NCBI GenBank assembly: GCA_032622095.1
Contig: CP136065.1
Span: forward strand, 96,605,343-96,669,342
DNA: 64,000 bases
From: Siphonodentalium dalli
Taxonomy: Eukaryota > Mollusca > Scaphopoda > Gadilida > Siphonodentaliidae
Direction of reading: 5' to 3'
The notes under the pieces were generated by a model. It ran no database searches. It was not told the origin of the DNA and worked only from the letters and a program-made list of their open reading frames with translations. The translations under genes were made by a program, and so were the position numbers. Shown in pieces: positions 7,833-63,643 of the stretch (position 1 is the stretch's first letter; each line of letters starts with the position of its first letter).

Positions 7833-9174
7833 GCCAACTTTGAACGACACCATTGTACTCATGGGAATGAAATTACATGCATGTAAATCTAATTTGGTAA
7901 TAATTCTGATAAAATATTTTATCCCGGAATTCTGGTGCCCTCCTGTCCCCATATAGCCATGTCTGTAAATTTCACTTTTCGCCAAGTGTATATTATACCG
8001 GTACTATACATGTAGTCCAGATGTGTAGCTATTGAGTTAAAGCTAATTCAAGCAACAATTCAGGTCATTTCATTTCAAAGGCACGGGTATTAAATTATAT
8101 TATTGAGCATATATTCCTCCCTCAATACTATTACATGCACTTCAGGCAGTGGCTGTCACGGTCTTATTCTTTGTCAGTATTTCTGCTAGTCGATATTCAA
8201 GTCAACAAACATATGCCAGCAGTTCTAATCATGCTACATATATAAATCATCAACCCATTGTGAATGACAAAACGTGACATTTGCATTCCAACATTATAAA
8301 ATTATAACAGAATATTTTCAAATTTCATCTATAGCTAGCTTGCCCTCTGAGCCTTTTACACCAGTTGGTTACCAAAACCATTTTATTTTGTATAGGATGG
8401 TGACCACAAATACGCATTCACGGACATACTGCTCAGTCCATTAGGATGCTACATGGAATGCATTGGCCAACACACTTATAGTATGTGTACATGGTTCATT
8501 AATAAGATTATATACCTATACATATCTTTATATATTCACTCAGAAGTATTTCAATGTTGGCAAAAAGATGGGAAGCAGATAAATATGGAAACTGTTTTTT
8601 ATAATATTGCTTCCGATGATGCTACTACCATCCCACTGTTTTGGGACCCGAGTTAATTTTGTACCTCTGCCTAACCGTACCAAACGATCAACTGCTTTCG
8701 AGAGAGAGAAAGGAAACAAAAGTTATGCTGGTATATGTTGGAATTTGCTAAATAATAATTGTTATAAAGAACAAGGCTGATATAATCTTGTTTCATATTA
8801 TCTTATTTAGTTATTTTGTTGGGGGTGGGTCCCAAAAATTTGGCATAGAAAAACAAATTGCAAATAGGGTGGGGATGGGTGGTCAGGTAGCGGAAATATT
8901 TTTTTTCGACCTGTCTGCAAATTTTGTCACGCCCCTGTTCATACAAATTAAAGTCTTCCCGTTGCATATAATTACAACTACTTTAGCTTTCACTTAAATG
9001 CGTGAATTTGATTGGTCAATGCCGTTAGATACGATTGGTAGCGACAATCTATATCAGCCGAGGGATATGTCGTTTACCGCATCACAACGCGCAGTGATAC
9101 TTTTCCGTTAAAAGAACAGATGAAGTCCAGACACATGAATCACTTGGCAAAAAAAGTTTGTGTTTTTAATATAG
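7833..9174. other. Non-coding stretch upstream of the LTR element
   Basis: No convincing gene, RNA or repeat seen. Confidence 0.45.
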
Positions 9175-9396
9175 TGTTGTGAAATGGACCACATAAATAA
9201 TGCTCAGGATGTATACTGATGTTTATGCTGCAAAACCGGAAGTGAAGCGTTTTCTGGCACTTGGAATTCAAACTTGAAGCTGATAGAGACGTTCTCATCA
9301 ATTTAAGCTGTCCAAGTCATCACAAACTAGGTAATTATACGTTATATAGTTAAAATAACCATATACTTACCTTCCCGAAGTGTTATAAACACTTCA
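9175..9396 (+). repeat. 5' LTR
   Basis: Begins TGTTGTGAAATGG and ends CTTCA, fitting TG...CA. The start was set by alignment to the right copy, the end by the 1-base spacer before the primer site. An AG|GTAATT donor-like string at 9330/9331 lies inside it. The LTR is only about 222 bp. Confidence 0.88.
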
Positions 9397-9397
9397 T

Positions 9398-9409
9398 TGG
9401 TGTCAGAAG
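9398..9409 (+). promoter_or_regulatory. Primer binding site, tRNA-Leu type
   Basis: TGGTGTCAGAAG directly follows the 5' LTR and matches the complement of a metazoan tRNA-Leu 3' end (…CTTCTGACA plus CCA) over 12 bases. Its position fixes the LTR edge. Confidence 0.8.
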
Positions 9410-9719
9410 CAAAGAAGCAAGCCGAGATAGTGATTTTTCTGTGTTTAAATTTTGATGAAGACAGATTTAAACGCTAGTCATTTTTGTGGCAATCGGTATT
9501 ACTGAATGCCTTAGTATATCAATGTATTATCGCCTTTCATCACCGGCATTACTGGAGATGAAATTATAAAAATTCTGCCATTCCTGACAAGAATCGTAAA
9601 ACAAATTTCAACACAAACTATTTTCCGCCTATTTTTTTCGTCACAACTACCATAATTAATCGGTATTCCCGAATAAGTGGTACGATATAAGTAACGAAAG
9701 ATAACAAGTGTTAGTGAAG

Positions 9720-10997
9720 ATGTCTACTTTAAATATAAATGAAGCAACGCTCGACGAGTTGCAACAACTGAAGGATATTGGACCGGTTCGAGCAAAAGCT
9801 ATTGTGAAGAGGATGAAAGAGAAGAATGGTAAATTGAACTGGGAAGAAATAAAGGGCATAACTGAGATACCATTTCCTATATGGGAATCTTTGATAAAAA
9901 GGAAGATTATTTCTTTCGAGTCCGACAAGACGGGCGAAATCAAAATTTCAGACCTGATGGGTGAAATTCGCGAAAGGAAGAATGAAAGACAGGAACACCT
10001 GAATAAGCTAGAGGTTCTGTACACTAATATTCAGGACAGCCGTGATCGATTGGACCACACAATAGCTGAACTGGAAGAGGCAAAGGAAAGCAACCACATA
10101 CTGAGAGAAGAATTGAAGAATATTAGAAAAGACAGAGAGAGTGAATCAGAATACCGAAGAAAAAAAGAAACCGACTTAAGGCATGACATAGAGATACAAC
10201 AAAGGCTGAATGACCAACTGACTGGATCAATGTTTAGATTAAAACATCCAATCATCAGTGATCAAGATGACAATCGTTCTCAAACGCACGACCAAGCACG
10301 AAGTCATTTTTCAGGATCGCTTGTGGACTCACTTGCACCAGGGGCAATCTATGGCAATGCTGAGCCAAATGCCCGTAGTACACCAAGGGACAAGGACCCG
10401 AAAGACCGATCAGAAAGGAGTTTGAATGCTACGGGATCACATTACAAAGGTCCATTACCTCCGAAAATGTCATACTTCGACGGCAAACATGATTGGAGGA
10501 GCTTCCATACTCAGTTTGACTTCATCGCCGATAAATATGGCTGGTCGTTAGAGGAGCGCCTAGATAGATTTGTCGAATCCCTACGTGACAAGGCTTTAAA
10601 GTTTTACTGCACATGTCCTCCTTCAGTACAACATGATTATGGAAAGTTGATGGAAAAGTTTGGACAAAGATTAGGTCGTAAGGAGCTACCACACACAATC
10701 AGGCGACAGCTACAGGATGTACGTCAAAACGTGGATGAATCATTTGATGAATTTGCTGAAAGGGTACAGGATCTGGCATATGAAGGCTATGCTAATGCCA
10801 CTCCCGAAATGATAGAGACAGTTTCTATTGATGCATTCTTCAAAGGCCTACAAGACAAACGTGCAACCTACTCAGCAATGGAACGAAATCCTATGACACT
10901 TGACACCGCGATACAATTGGTGAACAGTTCAATGCTGAACTACAGGATGCTGGTTGGTCAGAGGAAAACAGATGTAAGGAAAGTCACTTTTTTTTAA
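9720..10997 (+). CDS. gag: Gag: HhH domain, coiled coil and capsid region
   Basis: The first ATG of the open frame is at 9720; upstream in-frame codons have no ATG. Counting from that Met, residues about 4-61 form a ComEA-like helix-hairpin-helix domain (LNINEATLDELQQLKDIGPV and following), residues about 75-165 are a charged heptad-rich coiled coil, and residues about 250-415 resemble a Gypsy capsid region (YFDGKHDWRSFHTQFDFIAD start). The frame stops at TAA (10995-10997) right after eight T, and the same frame continues downstream through the zinc knuckle. The stop is therefore either a nonsense mutation or a read-through point separating capsid from nucleocapsid. Gag would package the element's RNA in cytoplasmic particles. 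The HhH at a Gag N-terminus is unusual and could bind DNA non-specifically; that role is inference. Confidence 0.88.
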   Translation: MSTLNINEATLDELQQLKDIGPVRAKAIVKRMKEKNGKLNWEEIKGITEIPFPIWESLIKRKIISFESDKTGEIKISDLMGEIRERKNERQEHLNKLEVLYTNIQDSRDRLDHTIAELEEAKESNHILREELKNIRKDRESESEYRRKKETDLRHDIEIQQRLNDQLTGSMFRLKHPIISDQDDNRSQTHDQARSHFSGSLVDSLAPGAIYGNAEPNARSTPRDKDPKDRSERSLNATGSHYKGPLPPKMSYFDGKHDWRSFHTQFDFIADKYGWSLEERLDRFVESLRDKALKFYCTCPPSVQHDYGKLMEKFGQRLGRKELPHTIRRQLQDVRQNVDESFDEFAERVQDLAYEGYANATPEMIETVSIDAFFKGLQDKRATYSAMERNPMTLDTAIQLVNSSMLNYRMLVGQRKTDVRKVTFF

Positions 10998-11336
10998 AGT
11001 GATTTTGAAGATGACACACATTCCCTGATCCGCCCGATCAACAGTGAACCATCGAACACAAGTGATATTCAGCAGGAATTGAGCTCATTGACGGGAGGAA
11101 TGAAGGCGATGTCAGATAACTTTTCTCAGAAATTTGACAAATTAATTTCTATTTTATCCGAGAAACCCAGGGGCAGAAGTTACACAACACCTCCTCCAAG
11201 TCCTTGGAAGTTTGTCTGTTTCACCTGCGGTGAAGAGGGCCATTTCATTAAAAAATTTGTGAAGCGGACTACAGGGCCAAAATCTCCACCAAAAAAACCC
11301 CATATGAAGTCTTTAAACTTCAGCGGGTTGGATTAG
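10998..11336 (+). pseudogene. gag: Gag C-terminal part with degenerate zinc knuckle
   Basis: Same frame as the upstream Gag, past the TAA at 10995. It encodes an acidic linker, a proline-rich stretch and a CCHC-type knuckle CFTCGEEGHFIKKF (about 11218-11259) in which the last Cys is Phe, so zinc binding is probably impaired. The frame ends at TAG 11334-11336. A run of seven A at 11291-11297, read as A|AAA|AAA in the Gag frame, sits just where a -1 slip would enter the Pol frame, which is open and similar to family sequence from that point. This is the likely Gag-Pol junction. Confidence 0.75.
11291..11297 (+). promoter_or_regulatory. Candidate -1 ribosomal frameshift site (A AAA AAA)
   Basis: In the Gag frame the codons are CCA AAA AAA CCC. 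The heptamer A|AAA|AAA fits the X XXY YYZ slippery rule, and Pol lies in the -1 frame beginning immediately after it. I did not establish a downstream pseudoknot. Function is inferred. Confidence 0.5.
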
Positions 11337-11878
11337 AAGACCGCAACCCAACCCAGTACACAACCAAACACGTCGGTCAAATGCACGAGGAGCTATGTAA
11401 GTCACAACACTATCTGGATTGTGATGATGCCAAAGACGAAGCTGAAGGCATAGCTGTAGGAAAACATCCAATTATGGGACCAGCCTTGAATGAAATACAA
11501 CTTTACTCACAGAAACAGGAACCTATGAACATTGTGTTGGAGGTGACTGTCAATGGAACTTCTGTTGTTGCTATTGTGGACACGGCTGCTCAAGTCACAG
11601 TGATGAGTGAACAGTTTATGTCTAAGGTGGCGCAGCCAATAGAGCTCAAAGAACATCTCATACTGAGGGGAGCTGGAAAATCCAACCAAATTAGATCGAG
11701 GCATGCTTACGGAGTGAAGTTCAAAACAGGAAAGACTGAGACCACCATGACTATCGTGGTTGCATAAATCCGCGACGCAGTTATCCTAGGCATCGATTTT
11801 CTAAGACAAAACTGTGCTATCATCGACTTCCCAAATTCATCCATTAATCTCAATGGAGAGCAACTACATGCTACAATT
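11303..11878 (+). CDS. pol: Pol protease (retropepsin), interrupted
   Basis: The -1 frame is open from at least 11303, before the first ATG at 11381. The aspartic protease core AIVDTAAQVTVMS has its catalytic Asp at 11579-11581. An in-frame TAA at 11765 breaks the frame, and immediately after it the same frame carries VILGIDFL, the conserved C-terminal retropepsin element. The stop therefore cuts inside the protease fold rather than marking its end. The protease would process Gag-Pol during particle maturation. Confidence 0.85.
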
Positions 11879-13444
11879 ATGAGAAACCCGGTGGGAAGGA
11901 CAGAGATTTGTGAGGTAACTATAGCAACAAAATGTAGTATACCGCCAGAATCATCTACAACAATACCTGTCGAAATGACGACAAATCTTGGACCTAATGC
12001 GATGATGCAGCCATTGAATAATGGAAGTGTCTGGCTACCTAGGATGCTCATCAAAGGTGACGAACAGAAACAGCATGTTCTGATAACAAATTGGGGCAGA
12101 GACACTGTTACTATTGGAAAAGGTGATGTTCTTGGCTATGCCGAAGAGGTAGATCTGGATCCAGCTAATGGATGTCAAGACCCAATATCACCAAAGCCGT
12201 TCAGTGTGATGGGTGTAAAGACTCAATATGTGGACATAGACATTCCAAATCATCTTCAGCATCTGTATGGTGCATCGATCAACCATCTTAAAACTTTTGA
12301 AGCAGCAGCATTGAAGATGTTGCTGAATGATTTCCAGGACATATTTGCAAGGGACGAGATGGATCTTGGGTCGTTTGATATCATTCAACATCGAATTTAT
12401 ACTGGAGACCACCCGCCTGTCAGACACAAACTTAGGAGGACACCAATAGGTTTCGAACAGGAAGAGAAGAAACACTTAGATATGATGCTGGATAGAGATG
12501 TCATTATGCCATCCTCTTCTGCCTGGGCTGCCTCGCCTGTATTGGTTAGGAAACGAGATGGATCCTTGAGGTACTGTATCGACTATAGGGGCTTGAATGA
12601 GAAAACAAGGAAAGATGCATTTCCCATTCCCAATATCGAGGAGTGCTTGAATGCCTTACATAACAACTTCTTCATGAGCAGAGTCGATTTATGCAGTGGA
12701 TACTGGCAGGCCAGGATCCATCCTGAAGACTGTCACAAGACGGCCTTCATAACAAAGTATGGGCTGTTCGAGCATGCACGATTAGCTTTCGGCCTTTGCA
12801 ATGCTCCAGCGACCTTCCAGCGTATCATTCAGTTTGTCCTCCAGGGTTTGACCTGGAAAGAATGCCTGGCGTACATCGATGACGTCATCGTGCTCGGCAC
12901 GGACTTTGACTCACATTTAGAGAATCTGAGACAGGTATTCCAAGGGTTCAGAGACCATAATCTGAAGTTGAAGCCACAGAAATGCTATCTGTTTCAGAAA
13001 GAAGTGAGTTTCTTGGGGAAGACCATTAATTCAGATGGAGTGTCCATATCTCAAGATAAGATCGAAGTGGTGAACAACTGGCCCTGCCCAACCACTAAGA
13101 AGGAGCTGCAGTCTTTTTTAGGATTTGCAAATTACCATCGAGATTTTGTGAGGAATTTTGCAGCGATTGCAGCACCTTTACATGAGCTAACTGGGAAATC
13201 ACAGACATTTGACTGGACAGCAGTGCATCAGGGAGCATATGAGGAACTTAAGAGACAATTAGGGAGCTCGGTATCTCTGAACTTCCCTAACCCAGATGGA
13301 AAATTTGTGCTGGACACTGATGCAACGGACTTATCTGTGGCTGCGGCACTGTCTCAGATCCAAGATGGCCAGGAAAAGGTAATCAGTTATGCTAGTCGTG
13401 TTTTGACTGGATACCAGCGACGGTACTGCACGACAAGGAAATAA
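11879..13444 (+). CDS. pol: Pol reverse transcriptase and N-terminal RNase H
   Basis: Same frame as the protease. RT signatures in order: LVRKRDGSLRYCIDYRGLN (near 12545), the SRVDLCSGYWQ Asp motif (near 12680), LAFGLCNAPATFQ (near 12785) and the catalytic YIDD box at 12872-12883. The connection contains SFLGFANYHRDFV, followed by RNase H with VLDTDATDLSVAAAL. The frame ends at TAA 13442-13444, inside a normally conserved RNase H motif next to YCTTRK, and resumes in the same frame. The enzyme copies element RNA to DNA in particles. Apart from that stop the RT domain looks intact. Confidence 0.93.
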   Translation: MRNPVGRTEICEVTIATKCSIPPESSTTIPVEMTTNLGPNAMMQPLNNGSVWLPRMLIKGDEQKQHVLITNWGRDTVTIGKGDVLGYAEEVDLDPANGCQDPISPKPFSVMGVKTQYVDIDIPNHLQHLYGASINHLKTFEAAALKMLLNDFQDIFARDEMDLGSFDIIQHRIYTGDHPPVRHKLRRTPIGFEQEEKKHLDMMLDRDVIMPSSSAWAASPVLVRKRDGSLRYCIDYRGLNEKTRKDAFPIPNIEECLNALHNNFFMSRVDLCSGYWQARIHPEDCHKTAFITKYGLFEHARLAFGLCNAPATFQRIIQFVLQGLTWKECLAYIDDVIVLGTDFDSHLENLRQVFQGFRDHNLKLKPQKCYLFQKEVSFLGKTINSDGVSISQDKIEVVNNWPCPTTKKELQSFLGFANYHRDFVRNFAAIAAPLHELTGKSQTFDWTAVHQGAYEELKRQLGSSVSLNFPNPDGKFVLDTDATDLSVAAALSQIQDGQEKVISYASRVLTGYQRRYCTTRK

Positions 13445-14950
13445 TTGTTGGCCATTATAACCTTCGTTAGACAATTTCGGACTTATCTACTGGGGAGGCA
13501 ATTCTTGATTCGTACAGATCACCACAGTCTAACGTGGCTAATGAGATTCAAGAATATACAAGGGCAGCGATGGATCGAAGAACTGGCCCAGTATGACATG
13601 ACGATTGTACACAGACCCGGCAAGGAACACTTAAATGCTGATCCTTTGTCCAGAATTCCGGACACTATACCAAGCTGTAATTGCTATTTTGCAGGATGTA
13701 ACCTGGAAGATCTACCATGTGGAGGATGCAAATTTTGCGAGAGAGCGCACACTCATTGGGCCCGTTTTGAAGCAGATGTGGATGATGTGGTACCACTAGC
13801 ACTGAGAAGTCTCGAGAAATTTGCAAGTTGTGAGATGTACAACCGAGAGTTAGATGTGAGTTCAGTTGCAGACATCCCTGATCGAGAAGACAGCTTGGCC
13901 AATTGGTTGGAAAGTGTGCCCAGAGAGACTCTGAAATCCAGACAGCATGATGATCATGACCTGAAGACTGTATGGGATATGCTGAAGGGTGAGAAAATAG
14001 ACGTCAATCATGCCAGCCCAGCAATTAAACACTGGAGCTTATGCTTGCCCCAATTGCAGGATTTAGATGGAATCATATTCTACAAATGGGTTGAAGAAGG
14101 TGGCTATCGTCAATTGCTGGTAGTCCCACGAAACATGGTCCCCGAAATATTGAATCACTGCCATAGCACTCGGTCCGGAGGGCATTTCGGTATTCAAAAG
14201 ACAGTGGCACGGGTGAAGCAACACTTCATATGGTACAAAGTATCTCAGGACCGTGAAGACTTTGTGAAAGCCTGCAAGATGTGTAACCTGAACAAAAAGG
14301 CAAACAGGAAGTCCAAAGCCAATCTCGGCCAGTACCATGTGGGGTACCCTCTGGAGAGGATCCACATCGATATATTGGGACCACTAACTGAAACCACTCA
14401 ATGCAACAAGTATGTGCTGATGATTGTAGACCAATTCTCAAAATGGTTGGAGTGTTTTCCTATCCCCAATCAGAACGCAGAAACTATCTCCAGGACTTTG
14501 GTTGACAACTTCATATCTCGTTTCGGATGTCCGCTCCAAATCCATAGTGACCAGGGCCGGAATTTTGATGGCAATCTATTTAAGCAATTGTGTGAACTTC
14601 TTGAAATTGCCAAGACAAGGACCACTCCCTACCACCCATGTTCAAACGGACAGGTTGAGAGGTACAATAGGGTGCTACTTCAGGCCATCCGATGCTCACT
14701 TGAAGGGAAACAGAATGAGTGGGACATACATATACCCCAATTAGCAGGAGCGATTAGAGCAACAGTCAACAGACAGACTGGGTATACTGCAAATTACTTG
14801 ATGCTCGGCAGGGAAGTTTTGCAACCAGTCAACATCCTACTTGGCACATCTGTTATGAACTCAGAGAAGGAGACCCCAGCCCAATACATCATGGACTTGA
14901 GGGATTCTATGGCGAAAGCACACTATCTGGCACGAGAGTCACCGAAATAA
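13445..14950 (+). CDS. pol: Pol RNase H end and integrase
   Basis: In the same frame after the 13442 stop. The rest of RNase H includes FLIRTDHHSLTWLM and NADPLSRIP. The integrase zinc-binding HHCC module spans about 14155-14285 (HCHSTRSGGH … CKMC). The catalytic triad has Asp at 14369-14371, Asp at 14549-14551 and Glu at 14657-14659, giving the expected D,D-35-E spacing. The frame closes at TAA 14948-14950 but continues in frame into the integrase C-terminus. Integrase would insert the DNA copy into the nucleus; all core catalytic residues are present. Confidence 0.93.
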   Translation: MLAIITFVRQFRTYLLGRQFLIRTDHHSLTWLMRFKNIQGQRWIEELAQYDMTIVHRPGKEHLNADPLSRIPDTIPSCNCYFAGCNLEDLPCGGCKFCERAHTHWARFEADVDDVVPLALRSLEKFASCEMYNRELDVSSVADIPDREDSLANWLESVPRETLKSRQHDDHDLKTVWDMLKGEKIDVNHASPAIKHWSLCLPQLQDLDGIIFYKWVEEGGYRQLLVVPRNMVPEILNHCHSTRSGGHFGIQKTVARVKQHFIWYKVSQDREDFVKACKMCNLNKKANRKSKANLGQYHVGYPLERIHIDILGPLTETTQCNKYVLMIVDQFSKWLECFPIPNQNAETISRTLVDNFISRFGCPLQIHSDQGRNFDGNLFKQLCELLEIAKTRTTPYHPCSNGQVERYNRVLLQAIRCSLEGKQNEWDIHIPQLAGAIRATVNRQTGYTANYLMLGREVLQPVNILLGTSVMNSEKETPAQYIMDLRDSMAKAHYLARESPK

Positions 14951-15571
14951 TCACAGAGGAGGCAAAAACGCGACTATGAGGTTAGGCTCAACAACAGTTA
15001 CTTCTGGGTTGGTGATATTGTGTATCTGTTGAACTCAGCCACAAAAGTGGGTCAGAGCTCCAAACTACAGCCCCCCTGAAAAGGTCCGTATTTGGTTACG
15101 AAGATGTTGTCTCCAGTGCTGGTCAGAATAAATATAGGAAGTCCGAAAGGGTTGTTCACCATGATCGGCTGAAGATATGCAGTGATGGGGTGGTGCCCAT
15201 TTGGCTGAAGAGACTACGCCACAAGTATGTGTTTGAGCAGGATGATTACACTTGGCAGTGGTATGCAGACAACCAAGGCTATTAAGCACTCAGATGAGTT
15301 GGGTACCATATATCCAGAAGAATCAGACACAAGGACAGCTGTTGAAGATGGTAATCATACCGATATTATCCCCGAGCCGGTATCACCGGATCTGGGTCCA
15401 ATACAACAATCCGGCAGTCAGTGCAATGCCGCCGGGATCACGGATAATGATCGATTAGCTATCCCTACACCGGTATCTCCGGAGCTGGGTTGTATGCCAC
15501 ATTTTAGTAATGTCACCAGAAAGAGATCCATCAAACGACCTCAACATCTGGATGCCTATGAATTGTATTAG
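14951..15571 (+). pseudogene. pol: Pol integrase C-terminus (GPY/F module) and tail, broken
   Basis: After the TAA at 14948 the frame still reads a basic SQRRQKRDYEVRLN stretch and a GPY/F-like KGPY module, with TGA at 15077 where the family usually has Trp. Near 15130 the similarity shifts to another frame (a HHDRLKICSDG-like segment) until about 15285. It then returns to the original frame for a tail rich in Pro and Ser with two PVSP(D/E)LG repeats, ending in a basic KRSIKRP stretch at 15571. No chromodomain is seen. Confidence 0.7.
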
Positions 15572-15621
15572 ACTTAGTTAGATGGTGATGCGATTTGTAA
15601 ATAAATGTATATTAATCATAA

Positions 15622-16395
15622 ATGTTTGTCTTTTTCTTATCAGTAGACATGGACGAAGCTCTTTTCATCCCTGACTATGATGATACTTCTTCTGATAAAC
15701 TGGATCGGGACGAAGCTTTGGTCATCTCTGGTTATGACGATATTTATTCAGATGATAAATTGGGCATGGACAAAGCCCTATTCACCCCGGTTTATGATGA
15801 TATATCATCTGATGATAAAGAAAATGAACCAACCTATGAAGAAGGTCCTACTTCATCCTCCAAGGGAGTGCGGTGTCCGGTTTGCCTAAACACATATGTA
15901 CACTTGAAGCGACATGTGATATCGGCTCACCTTCCCTGGTTCTTTGCTCATCAAACTGCCTGCTGGATATGTAACAAACAATACGTCCAGCTGAATCTTC
16001 TCCAGCAGCATGTATTAAGAGCGCATCCAACAACATATCCTGCTTGTGACACATTTAATGACGACCAAATAATGCCATGGTGTAGAAGGATGCTAGGCTG
16101 GTTCTTTAAACTTAGGAGTATGGTGTCTAAGGATCCAATCGTAAATGTCCGGAAACAGGAATCTATCGACGCTGAATTGAGTCTCATTCTTGTAAGAATA
16201 GCTACAGAAGAGTTTGCAGAAATGTTCGGTGTTGACAAAATTCCTGCATCTATGTTCCATTGGCGCACGGCAATGGTCTCTTCTCAACATCACCAATTTC
16301 GTTCCAGCACATCCTCTGGTGGACGGCCACTTCCATCTGGACATGTTGATGGTGAGGCATGGGGTTACCCAGCTAGGCAGCTTTCAACATTCTAA
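15622..16395 (+). CDS. Extra ORF, part 1: acidic repeats and two C2H2 zinc fingers
   Basis: An ATG at 15622 or, in the same frame, 15649; the second begins the repeat pattern and directly follows a splice-acceptor-like TTTTTCTTATCAG. Residues about 10-66 contain three imperfect ~20-residue acidic repeats (DEAL…YDD…SDDKL). Finger 1 uses C85, C88, H98, H103; finger 2 uses C114, C117, H130, H135. The region to about residue 219 has no family I recognise. From about 16280 this frame loses plausibility while the TatD frame in +1 takes over, so a single-base frameshift probably splits one ZnF-TatD protein. Zinc fingers could target DNA or RNA; that is inference. Confidence 0.72.
   Translation: MFVFFLSVDMDEALFIPDYDDTSSDKLDRDEALVISGYDDIYSDDKLGMDKALFTPVYDDISSDDKENEPTYEEGPTSSSKGVRCPVCLNTYVHLKRHVISAHLPWFFAHQTACWICNKQYVQLNLLQQHVLRAHPTTYPACDTFNDDQIMPWCRRMLGWFFKLRSMVSKDPIVNVRKQESIDAELSLILVRIATEEFAEMFGVDKIPASMFHWRTAMVSSQHHQFRSSTSSGGRPLPSGHVDGEAWGYPARQLSTF
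15629..15643 (+). promoter_or_regulatory. Candidate 3' splice site ahead of the extra ORF
   Basis: A pyrimidine-rich stretch ending CAG sits just before ATG 15649. With the donor-like AG|GTAATT in the 5' LTR (9330/9331) it could make a subgenomic mRNA, as env-bearing Gypsy elements do. Inferred from motif only. Confidence 0.35.
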
Positions 16396-17107
16396 TGACA
16401 ATGACCTTCGTCTAGCCGTTGCAAACTTTTGCTGGCCCCGTCATTGGGACAAAGCAGGTCGAAATCGGGAGGAGAATGTTGTATCCACTATTGGCCTGCA
16501 CCCACGAGTTGTCGGATTCGAAAATGGAAGGAAAATGGATAGATTTCTTTGTGATTTGGAAGAGAGAATTGACAATGGTGCATTCGTGGCGATCGGTGAG
16601 TGTGGCTTGGACTACAGTGGTGAACCGGGTCCAAAGGAAATTGCGTCACAGAAGCATATCTTCGAGAGGCAACTGAGAATGGCTGATACCCGGAACCTAC
16701 CAGTTGTGATTCATTGCAGAGGAGCTGGTTTGGTTTGGGATGATTGTGTGAACATAATGAAATCCAATCTTTACAGGCATCATGAAATATACTTTCATTG
16801 CTTTACTGGATCTGTTGAGATGTATACTAGGCTCTCCAGTCATTTTCACCATATTTTCTTTGGACTCTCACCGCTGATCACCAGAAGGAGTGATGCCCTG
16901 GTCTCACTAGTGAGAACAATGAATGTCAATCACATGATCACAGAAACTGATTCACCATATCTGAAGCCACAGGGAACCGAGGAATACAGCACCCCATTTT
17001 CTGTGAGACATGTAGTCAACGAGGTAGCCAACATTAAGAATCTTCCTGCATCTATAGTATGTGCCATATCTCTTAAAAATGTACATGCTCTTTTCCGGCG
17101 GGAGTAA
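16214..17107 (+). CDS. Extra ORF, part 2: TatD-family metal-dependent hydrolase
   Basis: The open frame begins with a non-ATG codon; the first ATG comes after the first metal motif, so this is best read as the C-terminal part of the upstream zinc-finger frame after a frameshift. TatD signatures are all present and in order (numbering from 16214): the HxH in VDGHFHLD (H39, H41), IGLHP (93-97), IGECGLDY with E129, VVIHCRG with H167, FHCFTGS with H195 and ITETDSPYL with D246. These are the metal ligands of the TatD TIM-barrel amidohydrolase fold, whose members act as 3'-5' exonucleases/DNases. Its place between integrase and the polypurine tract shows it belongs to the retrotransposon. Whether it helps replication, trims DNA ends or counters host defence cannot be told from sequence. 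Confidence 0.87.
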   Translation: MQKCSVLTKFLHLCSIGARQWSLLNITNFVPAHPLVDGHFHLDMLMVRHGVTQLGSFQHSNDNDLRLAVANFCWPRHWDKAGRNREENVVSTIGLHPRVVGFENGRKMDRFLCDLEERIDNGAFVAIGECGLDYSGEPGPKEIASQKHIFERQLRMADTRNLPVVIHCRGAGLVWDDCVNIMKSNLYRHHEIYFHCFTGSVEMYTRLSSHFHHIFFGLSPLITRRSDALVSLVRTMNVNHMITETDSPYLKPQGTEEYSTPFSVRHVVNEVANIKNLPASIVCAISLKNVHALFRRE

Positions 17108-17534
17108 AATCGTCAGAGGGATCTATGTTTTTAACTTGCACTGTTGGAGGACTTATGTTTTTAGATGAACTGTTTTTGCACCTGACACTTTCATGTGTAC
17201 CTGAACATGAAATAGCTGATAACCGACATAGCAGACTCACATGGATCAACTCAACACAGGAGTGACATTTTGTACCCGGTATCTCTGGGTTGCAAAATGT
17301 CGATAGACATCAGAGTAATGACAGGATGATCCTCTGAATTGAGTATATATGGCCAAGGATCAGTTCCATCCTCAGATTATGGCAAGAATTGTGACCACAT
17401 GTTCTTGTGTTTGGTGGGTTTTCGTGTGCACATGTCCCGATGTCGCGGGGACAATGGTGAATCCTCGTACGTGTGTCCCGGTATCTCTGGGATGATTTTG
17501 TAGTTTCTGGGAGATGCTTCCAAACAAAACAAAT
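17108..17534 (+). other. 3' untranslated region of the LTR element
   Basis: Non-coding DNA between the TatD stop and the polypurine tract; no further domain found on either strand. Confidence 0.6.
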
Positions 17535-17548
17535 AAAGCGGAGGGAAG
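17535..17548 (+). promoter_or_regulatory. Polypurine tract
   Basis: AAGCGGAGGGAAG directly abuts the 3' LTR start (TGTTGTG), the expected place for plus-strand priming. Confidence 0.75.
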
Positions 17549-17798
17549 TGTTGTGAAATGGACCACATAAATAATGCTCTGGATGTGTACTGATGTTTAT
17601 GCTGCAAAACCGGAAGTGAAGCGTTTTCTGGCACTTGGAATTCAAACTTGAAGCTGATAGAGACGTTCTCATCAATTCAAACTTGAAGCTGATAGAGACG
17701 TTCTCATCAATTTAAGCTGTCCAAGTCATCACAAACTAGGTAATTATACGTTATATAGTTAAAATAACCATATACTTACCTTCCCGAAAGTTTCTTCA
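17549..17798 (+). repeat. 3' LTR, with internal 35 bp tandem duplication
   Basis: Matches the 5' LTR with about two substitutions over the shared part. The segment starting ATTCAAACTTGAAGC occurs twice in tandem (17640-17674 and 17675-17709) but once in the 5' LTR. The last few bases differ from the left copy, so the end is approximate. Confidence 0.85.
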
Positions 17799-35422: not shown

Positions 35423-36502
35423 AGTATTCTCTTGCTTTTGTCATGTTTCCGGGAACAGAATAGATCAATTTGTATATAGATGCTGGTTATACCCAGCTTG
35501 TGATATTGGTTGGTATATAGATGCTGGTTATACACAGCTTGTGATATTGGTTGGTATGTAGATGCTGGTTGTACCCACCTTGTGATATTGGTTGATATGT
35601 AGATGCTGGTTATACCCAGCTTGTGATATTGGTTGGCATGTAGATGCTGGTTATACCCAGCTTGTGATATTGGTTGGTATGTAGATACTGGTTATACACA
35701 GCTTGTGATATTGGTGTGTATATAGATCCTGGTTATACCCAGCTTGTGATATTGGTTGGTATGTAGATGCTGGTTGTACCCAGCTTGTGATATTGGTTGG
35801 TATATAGATGCTGGTTATACCCAGCTTGTGATATTGGTTGGTGTATATATGCTGGTTATACCCAGCTTGTGATATTGGTTGGTGTATAGATGCTGGTTAT
35901 ACCCAGCTTGTGATATTGGTTGGTGTATATATGCTGGTTATACCCAGCTTGTGATATTGGTTGGTATATAGATGCTGGTTATACCCAGCTTGTGATATTG
36001 GTTGGTGTATATATGCTGGTTATACCCAGCTTGTGATATTGGTTGGTGTATAGATCCTGGTTATACCCAGCTTGTGATATTGGTTGGTATATAGATCCTG
36101 GTTATACCCAGCTTGTGATATTGGTTGGTATATAGATGCTGGTTATACCCAGCTTGTGATATTGGTTGGTATATAGATCCTGGTTATACCCAGCTTGTGA
36201 TATTGGTTGGTATGTAGATGCTGGTTGTACCCAGCTTGTGATATTGGTTGGTATATAGATGCTGGTTATACCCAGCTTGTGATATTGGTTGGTGTATATA
36301 TGCTGGTTATACCCAGCTTGTGATATTGGTTGGTGTATAGATGCTGGTTATACCCAGCTTGTGATATTGGTTGGTGTATAGATGCTGGTTATACCCAGCT
36401 TGTGATATTGGTGTGTATATAGGTGCTGGTTTTCCCAGCAGATATTTTATCAGTCTATTCTGATCCCAGAAACATGGCAAACGAAAGAGAATACTAGGTT
36501 TA
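35423..36502. mobile_element. Inverted-repeat cassette enclosing the minisatellite
   Basis: CCTAGTATTCTCTTGC…GAACAGAATAG at 35423-35464 is the reverse complement of CTATTCTGATC…GAGAATACTAGG at about 36455-36502, and the 41 bp array lies exactly between. A related short hairpin without any array is at 37375-37451. This resembles bivalve elements whose cores are tandem arrays; no transposase is present. Confidence 0.6.
35471..36440. repeat. 41 bp minisatellite, ~23 copies
   Basis: The unit GCTGGTTATACCCAGCTTGT plus GATATTGGTTGGTATATAGAT repeats about 23-24 times with few substitutions. Variants alternate (TATATAGATG, TGTATAGATG, TGTATATATG, TATAGATCC) in blocks, suggesting higher-order duplication. 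Each unit contains the small palindrome GCTGGTTATACCCAGC. The period is not a multiple of three, so it is not coding. Confidence 0.95.
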
Positions 36503-62263: not shown

Positions 62264-62365
62264 TACAATCTTTCACTGGAGAGGGCTAGTATGATACATC
62301 ATTACATGGCCTTGTTGACTCCCGAAAAAATAAAAACTACGGGTGCGATGCCATACTATTACTGG

Positions 62366-62568
62366 TGTAGCAGTCGCATTGTAAATATAGAAGGCCGATG
62401 ACTTCTCTGATCGAGAGGTCTAGATCTCTTGGTCACGGTCGTTAGACGCTTTGTGTGATCACCGAAGTTAAGCAACTTTGAGCTTGGTTAATCCTTGGAT
62501 GGGTGACCAGCTTGGGATTCCGGGTGCTGCCAACTTTCAGTGCGACTCCCCTCTCTCGTTCTGTTACA
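62366..62568 (+). repeat. TRIM 5' LTR
   Basis: TGTAGCAGTCGCATTG … CGTTCTGTTACA. Differs from the right LTR by roughly 15 substitutions or small indels, so the insertion is older than the Gypsy copy. Confidence 0.85.
62418..62537 (+). other. 5S rRNA-like sequence inside the TRIM LTR
   Basis: Exactly 120 bases from GTCTAG to CAACTTT. The 3' two-thirds follow animal 5S rRNA closely: GATCACCGAAGTTAAGCAAC (box A), TTGGATGGGTGACC (intermediate element and box C), GGGTGCTG near the end. The 5' third is diverged but starts at the right distance. The internal RNA polymerase III promoter elements are therefore recognisable. A host 5S gene is unlikely because of its LTR context and divergence. Confidence 0.82.
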
Positions 62569-62569
62569 C

Positions 62570-62583
62570 TGGGGGCTCGTCCG
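62570..62583 (+). promoter_or_regulatory. TRIM primer binding site, tRNA-Pro type
   Basis: TGGGGGCTCGTCCG, one base after the LTR end, matches the complement of a tRNA-Pro 3' end over 14 bases. Confidence 0.8.
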
Positions 62584-62669
62584 CTCCTCGGAGTCTGTGT
62601 CATGATGCGACCGCTCTGGGGGAGACTCGGGTGAGATTCGGTGAATCTCAAAAAGAACGGGGGGAGTAG

Positions 62670-62882
62670 TGTAGCAGTCACATTGTAAATATAGAAGGCC
62701 GATGACTTCTCGATCAGAGAGGTCTAGATCTCTTGGTCACAGTTGTTAAGACGCTTTGTGTGATCACCAAAGTTAAGCAACGTTGAGCTCGGTTAGTCCT
62801 TGGATGGGTGACCGGCTTGGGATTCCGGGTGCTGCCAACTTTCGGTGTGACTCCCGCACTTCTCTCTCTCTCGTTCTGTTAA
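62670..62882 (+). repeat. TRIM 3' LTR with second 5S-like copy
   Basis: TGTAGCAGTCACATTG … CTCGTTCTGTTAA. Its 5S-like part keeps GATCACCAAAGTTAAGCAAC and TTGGATGGGTGACC. A CT-repeat near 62862-62872 makes it slightly longer than the left LTR. Confidence 0.83.
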
Positions 62883-63643
62883 ACTAGTAGTAGTATTAGT
62901 ACTCTTGTGGCCCGAATAGCAGAAAGGACCGAAATAGTAGTACAGGGTGGACAAATGGGCAAATTTCAATAATAGTACAGACCAGAGTAGAAGTACAGAG
63001 GATGGACAAACTTTACACATCTTTATAAAAGTGTTGATTTGTTTAATTTCAAATTCCAAACGAGCGAGTGTACAGATTTGTTTTGGCGAGCGACCAGTTA
63101 GGTTTTATGCTAAGTCTATAATTGATTCCTGGAAATAATTTTATATGGAGTGAAATTATGCCGGAATATAATTTACGCGAAAAAAACTATGTTTACTAGA
63201 AACTCAAACTTGCTTGGTACTTACACTTGTGGCCACTGCCTACTAACACCAGTAATGGTGTTTATATAAAGTATTCAATTGATAGAAACTGAAACACCTC
63301 CACTTGCTTTACATTGGTAGAAAAGTTTGTAAAACTTCAACAGACTCAGAGAAGAATATTTACAATATTTGCTTTTGGTCGGGCCTAACAAAAAAAGACG
63401 TTTGTTTCCGCTAACCTGACTGACCCTATTTAAAAGCGCCGAGTCTAAACTTTTTATTGCGATCGAAAAACTGACTTAAAAAAAATAATGGTATCTGAAT
63501 GTTTCACGCATTTAACAGAGATAAAAGCACGGCTGTCGCTTCCGGTAGAAATACCCACATACTATAAATAGATACGTATCTCCCATTGAAAACAGCCGGT
63601 GCTTTGGAAAGTAAACATAATTCACACCACAACAACAGCAACA
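62883..63643. other. Non-coding stretch
   Basis: Nothing recognised. A donor-like GTAAGT on the minus strand at 63219-63224 was tested as a CBX first exon and does not read as chromodomain. Confidence 0.45.

Follow-up and report, generated by a model that had tools for sequence, protein, structure and literature searches.

A short element with a 5S rRNA-like unit in each of its long terminal repeats (LTRs) raises the question of whether a miniature retrotransposon of an animal carries a promoter taken from a 5S gene, and whether it is the first of its design in animals. The element lies in the window, the whole 64-kb stretch of DNA that was analyzed. Judged by its sequence, it is a genuine, multicopy terminal-repeat retrotransposon in miniature (TRIM) with a 5S promoter and a primer site for tRNA-Pro; elements of this kind have been described in plants and nemerteans.

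Anatomy of the Element

The window copy has two LTRs, a primer-binding site (PBS) after the 5' LTR, a polypurine tract (PPT) before the 3' LTR, a size below 1 kb, and no protein, as is characteristic of TRIMs (table 1); no open reading frame (ORF) of at least 150 aa is listed inside it. The initial annotation had proposed a 517-bp LTR-PBS-PPT-LTR structure. The LTR alignment, PBS, and PPT uphold the structure, but the length is one base more. The LTRs flank an interior of 101 bp and are identical at 191 of 202 aligned bases, with 9 transitions, 2 transversions, and 13 gap columns (K80 of 0.057). At 9 of the 11 substitutions between them, one LTR copy has a CpG. This bias fits the decay of a methylated, old insertion, and the window copy is probably of that kind. 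Self-comparison found no second copy of the element within the 64-kb window. Elsewhere, the window has a Polycomb CBX-type exon, a mark of an animal genome, and, at 35472-36439, a 41-bp tandem repeat of 23.6 copies with 94% matches.

Table 1. Coordinates of the element and its parts in the window (Pro, proline; host 5S, 5S gene of the same genome).
Feature	Positions	Strand	Basis or match
Whole element, TRIM, 518 bp	62366..62883	+	LTR alignment, same-genome copies
5' LTR, starts TGTAGCAG, ends CTGTTACA, 203 bp	62366..62568	+	
3' LTR, starts TGTAGCAG, ends CTGTTAAA, 214 bp	62670..62883	+	
Left target-duplication half, CTGG (imperfect, 3/4)	62362..62365	not assigned	
Right target-duplication half, CTAG	62884..62887	not assigned	
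TATA-like motif, 5' LTR, 32 bases ahead of 5S-like unit	62386..62389	+	
TATA-like motif, 3' LTR, 32 bases ahead of 5S-like unit	62690..62693	+	
5S-like unit, 5' LTR, 120 bp, recognizable from about 5S position 35	62418..62537	+	
5S-like unit, 3' LTR, 121 bp	62722..62842	+	ungapped vs human 5S
Box A, 5' LTR	62466..62480	+	13/15 vs host 5S
Box C, 5' LTR	62496..62513	+	17/18 vs host 5S, gapped
Box A, 3' LTR	62771..62785	+	14/15 vs host 5S
Box C, 3' LTR	62801..62818	+	16/18 vs host 5S
tRNA-Pro PBS, 14 nt, one base past 5' LTR	62570..62583	+	
PPT ahead of 3' LTR, purines 18/20	62650..62669	+	

The 5S-like Part of the LTRs

Likeness to 5S is confined to the promoter part of the gene. In ungapped alignment to human 5S, the unit of the 3' LTR agrees at 5 of 5 bases over positions 1-5, 5 of 29 over 6-34, 10 of 15 over 35-49, 51 of 64 over 50-113, 0 of 4 over 114-117, and 4 of 4 over 118-121. 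The agreement over positions 6-34 is at chance level; a separate gapped comparison of positions 1-34 gave 19-23 of 34, a figure inflated by gaps, and the ungapped count was preferred. The GTCTA that starts the unit of the 3' LTR is in register with 5S position 1, which may be chance, and GTCTA was absent from the subfamily B heads that were examined (see below). When human 5S 35-113 was scanned without gaps across the window, the two LTR units were the best places (61/79 and 60/79) and the next best had 38 matches. Their local alignment scores of 67 and 69 exceed shuffle maxima of 27 and 33 (1000 shuffles each). The Rfam 5S model finds both units, at 25.0 and 19.3 bits, under its gathering score of 38; at gathering scores, Rfam had no match in the whole window.

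Only the part from about 5S 35 to 113, which includes box A, the intermediate element (IE), and box C, is thus recognizable, so that "full-length," as the units were first described, is true of their size alone. The accompanying claim of a 120-base unit with intact motifs holds for size (120 and 121 bp) but not for the boxes, which are imperfect relative to the host 5S gene (box A 13-14/15, IE 4-5/6, box C 16-17/18). The host reference is a gene from locus L066, and in gapped alignment to it, IE agrees at 4 of 6 bases in the 5' LTR and 5 of 6 in the 3' LTR. Compared with a published box pattern, the LTRs are near without being exact (box A 11/12 and 10/12, box C 12/13 in both), and 18 nt separate box A from box C in both. 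Five LTRs were compared across two subfamilies, and all place TATA at position 21 of the LTR and box A at 102-103. In four Donax bivalves, a TATA-like motif is described at about -28 of 5S genes (PMC6204057). By sequence alone, the LTRs have the Pol III-type promoter sequence, derived from a small-RNA gene, that characterizes TRIMs of the TRIMp3 type.

We rejected the possibility that the units encode functional 5S rRNA, given Rfam scores below gathering and folding of the unit of the 3' LTR no better than that of shuffles (z of -0.06). Host 5S genes score far higher, with 47 places at 104-118 bits (47 of 95474 Rfam 5S candidate places were scored). Within that scored set, they form arrays on contigs C2 and C9, with additional occurrences on C2, C6, and C9 (loci L066-L073).

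Copies, Target Duplications, and Arrays

The element belongs to a dispersed family. Across the genome (2.23 Gb in nine contigs), a search in which 40 of the 2027 candidates were scored gave 53 element matches, distributed over all nine contigs. We examined 39 loci, 30 from a search with the whole element and 9 from a search with a 17-nt primer site; some overlap or share flanks, and the copies represent nearest relatives chosen by likeness to the whole element and not a random sample. Two LTRs are present in 26 loci, three in 7, four in 4, and one in 2. Element size ranges from 508 to 548 bp in the 30 loci of the whole-element search. K80 between LTRs is 0.006-0.104, with a median of 0.051, in the 22 loci with two usable LTRs (0.052 for the window copy in this comparison). 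Exact DNA patterns of the element had no match in viral_contigs or genome_contigs, which says little because both collections consist of viral, bacterial, and archaeal sequences.

Target duplications of 4-6 bp had been suggested as a check, and the family has them at 4 bp. Considering only distinct insertions in which both ends and two or more LTRs were found (27 in all), the 4-bp duplication is perfect in 13, and no insertion has a perfect one of 3, 5, or 6 bp. The other 14 lack a perfect duplication according to a script that locates LTR ends by their motifs and overlooks some of them; in L005 and L019, which are outside the 13, the duplication is 4/4 when ends are set by alignment. Short target duplications of constant size are thus a feature of the family, and that of the window's own copy is imperfect. 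A perfect 4-bp duplication also bounds two arrays, L028 with three LTRs and L058 with four, which indicates that arrays formed after integration.

These data bear on two simpler explanations. The two 5S-like units lie ~305 bp apart and tandem arrays are known among host 5S genes, as would be expected if the locus consisted of two degenerate 5S genes in tandem, separated by a spacer. The repeat, however, reaches past the 5S part on both sides to TG...CA ends, the tRNA-Pro PBS and purine tract sit at the two inner junctions, and copies are dispersed on all nine contigs with perfect 4-bp duplications in 13 of 27. We consider a tandem pair extremely improbable, and for the copies examined, LTR anatomy, dispersal, and duplications rule out tandem 5S pseudogenes. 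Small size and a 5S-derived promoter would also fit a SINE3-type element that a LINE had mobilized and whose LTR-like flanks arose by chance. Two LTRs, a PBS, a PPT, and constant 4-bp duplications are not features of SINEs, making this reading very improbable; a single 5S-headed unit with a LINE-like tail is ruled out for the copies examined. A SINE3 may nonetheless have been the source of the 5S core.

A Second Subfamily with a Closer Match to Host 5S

A second subfamily (B) is closer to the host 5S gene than is the window's subfamily (A). The 17-nt primer site TGGGGGCTCGTCCGGGA is found at 42 places in the genome, 30 of which were made into loci. When the upstream 260 bases of 15 of those 30 were compared with host 5S, the 5S core was present in nine and absent in six. 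The nine represent fewer insertions because L045/L046 and L051/L052 share flanks and L055/L056 are one array. The longest exact stretch shared with host 5S spans positions 42-93 in L045/L046, 37-87 in L051/L052, and 41-77 in L061. It is 17 to 27 bases long in four loci similar to the window's subfamily (L044, L055, L056, and L058) and 20 and 16 bases in the window copy. Except in L045/L046 and L051/L052, the exact match in the nine loci ends inside the control region.

In the 5' LTRs of three subfamily B insertions, box A (15/15) and IE (6/6) are identical to host 5S, and the three subfamily B LTRs compared have TATA at position 21 and box A at position 103 of the LTR. None of the nine loci compared with host 5S has all boxes perfect in both LTRs. 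L051/L052 have insertions within box C, and the 5S core is absent from the 3' LTR of L045/L046. The LTRs of L051 are 98.6% alike and CACC is on both sides of the element, which suggests recent movement.

The LTR head in subfamily B resembles a tRNA 5' end with an A-box-like stretch, agreeing with the 5' end of host tRNA-Pro at 14 of 17 bases. Using five host tRNA predictions, a match as good was obtained in 9 of 500 shuffles for subfamily B and in 310 of 500 for the window's subfamily. Sequence likeness is thus suggestive of a tRNA-like head in subfamily B only. The LTR head may be a composite of a TATA-like motif, then (in B) a tRNA-like 5' end, and then the 5S control region.

Primer Site and Candidate Mobilizer

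The PBS, TGGGGGCTCGTCCG, occurs exactly only once in the window. A host tRNA-Pro gene predicts TGGGGGCTCGTCCGGGATT; of these 19 letters, the element matches the first 14 contiguously and 15 overall. The same letters are contained in a published reverse primer for the 3' end of human tRNA-Pro and in the published proline primer site of murine leukemia virus. The exact 14-mer is present in 16 of 27 copies. Assignment of the primer to tRNA-Pro, as first proposed, therefore agrees with both the host gene and published proline primer sequences. Among the first 100 of 266 places listed for tRNA-Pro genes, these genes occupy stretches of ~31 and ~151 kb (C3:244762463-244793586 and C3:245487107-245637861) in a repeat of about 1.41 kb. 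Locus L033 also has tRNA-Gly genes and is a tandem tRNA array.

An autonomous element sharing the primer site and LTR ends had been anticipated, and L077 has both. It is a Gypsy-type element with a tRNA-Pro primer site, reverse transcriptase (RT), RNase H, and integrase in order and above Pfam cut-offs, protease matches just under the cut-offs, and a zinc knuckle in the reading frame that lies upstream. Its LTR begins with TGTAATAG and ends with GGTTACA. The LTRs of L077 are identical over 1084 bp; its target duplication is unreadable because the final 28 bp of its 3' LTR were not recovered. L077 and the TRIM share only the primer site and short LTR ends, with no longer stretch of LTR in common. 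A tRNA-Pro Gypsy element is a candidate partner. The 4-bp duplications fit a Gypsy partner because animal Helenus elements have duplications of this size and are tied to Gypsy (PMC10886601).

The Gypsy element in the window itself (9173-17788) was rejected as a partner, as it contains no tRNA-Pro site at three or fewer mismatches. Its LTRs (9173-9379 and 17547-17788) are 84.7% alike. Inside them and downstream of the integrase are an ORF at 15622-16395 with a weak C2H2 match below the Pfam cut-off and an overlapping ORF at 16214-17107 with a complete TatD_DNase domain (160.6 bits). A literature search for TatD together with LTR retrotransposons and Gypsy found nothing. Named relatives of this TatD are distant and include TATDN2 of fish and mammals and, at 30%, a TatD of Mytilus coruscus. 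Those of the RT are distant too and come from Haliotis, Trichinella, a goby, and records assigned to Sedimenticola, Thiodiazotropha, and a deltaproteobacterium. Sedimenticola and Thiodiazotropha are symbionts of clams. Searches with three window proteins turned up no close relative from an identified species; the host is probably a mollusc. Locus L075 (C4:146584400-146594300) has a tRNA-Pro primer site, 700-bp LTRs that are 99.7% alike, and an interior of ~1.4 kb, and is apparently another recent, non-autonomous LTR element.

Putative Promoter Function and a Proposed Model for Mobility

If the 5S core functions as a promoter, it could be better conserved than its surroundings. Across 60 LTRs of 27 loci, non-CpG diversity is 0.092 in 5S 50-97 versus 0.055 in the rest (p of 0.045), which is in the wrong direction. 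The core is not better kept than the rest within subfamily A, and there is thus no direct support from conservation for promoter function in that subfamily. Neutral decay after insertion can explain the pattern. The sense strand of the window copy has no TTTT, which is also missing in 13% of shuffles, in 6% of window tiles, and in 20 of 27 copies (the other seven have at least one). Absence of TTTT allows read-through of the 5' LTR, proves nothing, and is weak evidence.

The lack of additional conservation in the core would also be expected if the 5S part were an inert passenger and the TRIM depended on Pol II transcription starting at the TATA-like motif, the position of which is constant in the five LTRs compared. 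Against this, resemblance to host 5S remains close at box A, at IE, and over most of box C in two subfamilies that have diverged, while nothing of the 5S region ahead of position 35 can be recognized in the window copy. We regard an inert core as unlikely. The family is very probably composed of non-autonomous LTR retrotransposons of the TRIMp3 type, which we infer to rely on Pol III for transcription and on a tRNA-Pro Gypsy element for mobilization in trans.

For such an element, TFIIIA and TFIIIC would bind the 5S-derived box A-IE-box C within the 5' LTR, and the TATA-like motif 32 bases upstream would help position Pol III. The polymerase would read past the 5' LTR, which in the window copy lacks TTTT, through the interior, and into the 3' LTR. 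The TRIM RNA would be taken into particles of the Gypsy element, where tRNA-Pro would prime minus-strand synthesis, the LTR repeats would enable the strand jump, and the purine tract would prime the plus strand. Insertion of the product by the Gypsy integrase would generate the 4-bp duplication. Unequal exchange between LTRs could later yield the arrays.

Comparison with Known Systems

Cassandra is a plant TRIM with 5S sequence in its LTRs (PMC10853983, PMC7215508). Like Cassandra, the family described here has a 5S-derived promoter in both LTRs, arrays of LTRs and interiors, and no coding capacity, and the 18-nt gap between box A and box C is the same in the published Cassandra query and the window LTRs (PMC7215508). 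The two differ in host, which here is an animal, in the PBS, which is TGGTATCAGAGC in Cassandra (PMC7215508) versus the tRNA-Pro site TGGGGGCTCGTCCG, and in the end of the 5S part, which here is CTTTC without a run of four Ts.

Ajax, a TRIM of 421-434 bp reported from two nemerteans, has the promoter part of 5S in its LTR (Kojima 2024, PMC10886601). The expectation that the window element would be the first of this design in an animal is therefore overturned; the design has been known in nemerteans since 2024, and the element is a further example. The search that revealed Ajax is described as beginning in Notospermus and extending to Lineus (PMC10886601), and that study thus does not exclude other phyla. 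Among the matches listed in literature on 5S or TRIM elements, with subscription papers mostly outside its range, there was no further animal 5S TRIM. Ajax and the present family are both animal TRIMs that have a PBS and a PPT and whose LTR contains box A, IE, and box C of 5S together with a diverged 5' part. By its description, Ajax is set apart by a tRNA-Leu primer in place of tRNA-Pro, a 5-bp duplication (0 of 27 insertions here), and a size below the 508-548 bp of 30 loci here (PMC10886601).

The family could be a divergent branch of Ajax and not a separate capture of the 5S promoter. The design is the same, the size is similar (421 and 434 bp for Ajax), and in both, likeness to 5S is confined to the promoter part. 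The reported tRNA-Leu primer and 5-bp duplication of Ajax, compared with tRNA-Pro and 4 bp, make common descent rather improbable in our view.

Two other types of animal TRIM share features with the family. Helenus has a tRNA-derived LTR promoter, compared with the 5S-derived one here; animal Helenus elements have the same 4-bp duplications and tie to Gypsy, those of bivalves include elements with tRNA-Pro primers, and one Helenus-tied Gypsy element, from oyster, uses tRNA-Pro (PMC10886601). The biv-TRIM of bivalves has arrays and LTRs of 202-218 bp and is described as having no identified canonical PBS, in which it differs (PMC6934838). Its published primers (at most 11/20) and internal motif TGATCCCAAAGGAC (at most 9/14) have no good match in the element, and we rejected biv-TRIM as its identity (PMC6934838). 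The forward primer was compared with the sense strand of the element and both primers with both window strands, where the best match was 14/20.

It is tempting to view the family as a third case in which a TRIM independently captured a 5S promoter, this time in another animal lineage, driven by tRNA-Pro Gypsy elements and with a core that follows the host 5S gene, and we offer this tentatively, as a reading with somewhat less than an even chance. If plants, nemerteans, and this animal share the 5S-in-LTR design, promoter capture by miniature LTR elements would represent a recurrent route. TRIMs with 5S promoters could also be the origin of some of the stray 5S-like sequence scattered in animal genomes; the Rfam 5S model, applied loosely as a first look at this genome, gave 95474 candidate places, only 47 of them scored. 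The family provides a case for asking which tRNA-Pro Gypsy element moves the TRIM and whether, as has been suggested for Cassandra, LTR cores keep pace with the 5S gene of the host. In design, the element is like both Cassandra and Ajax, yet it differs from each in a defining feature: the primer site and, for Ajax, also the size of the target duplication.
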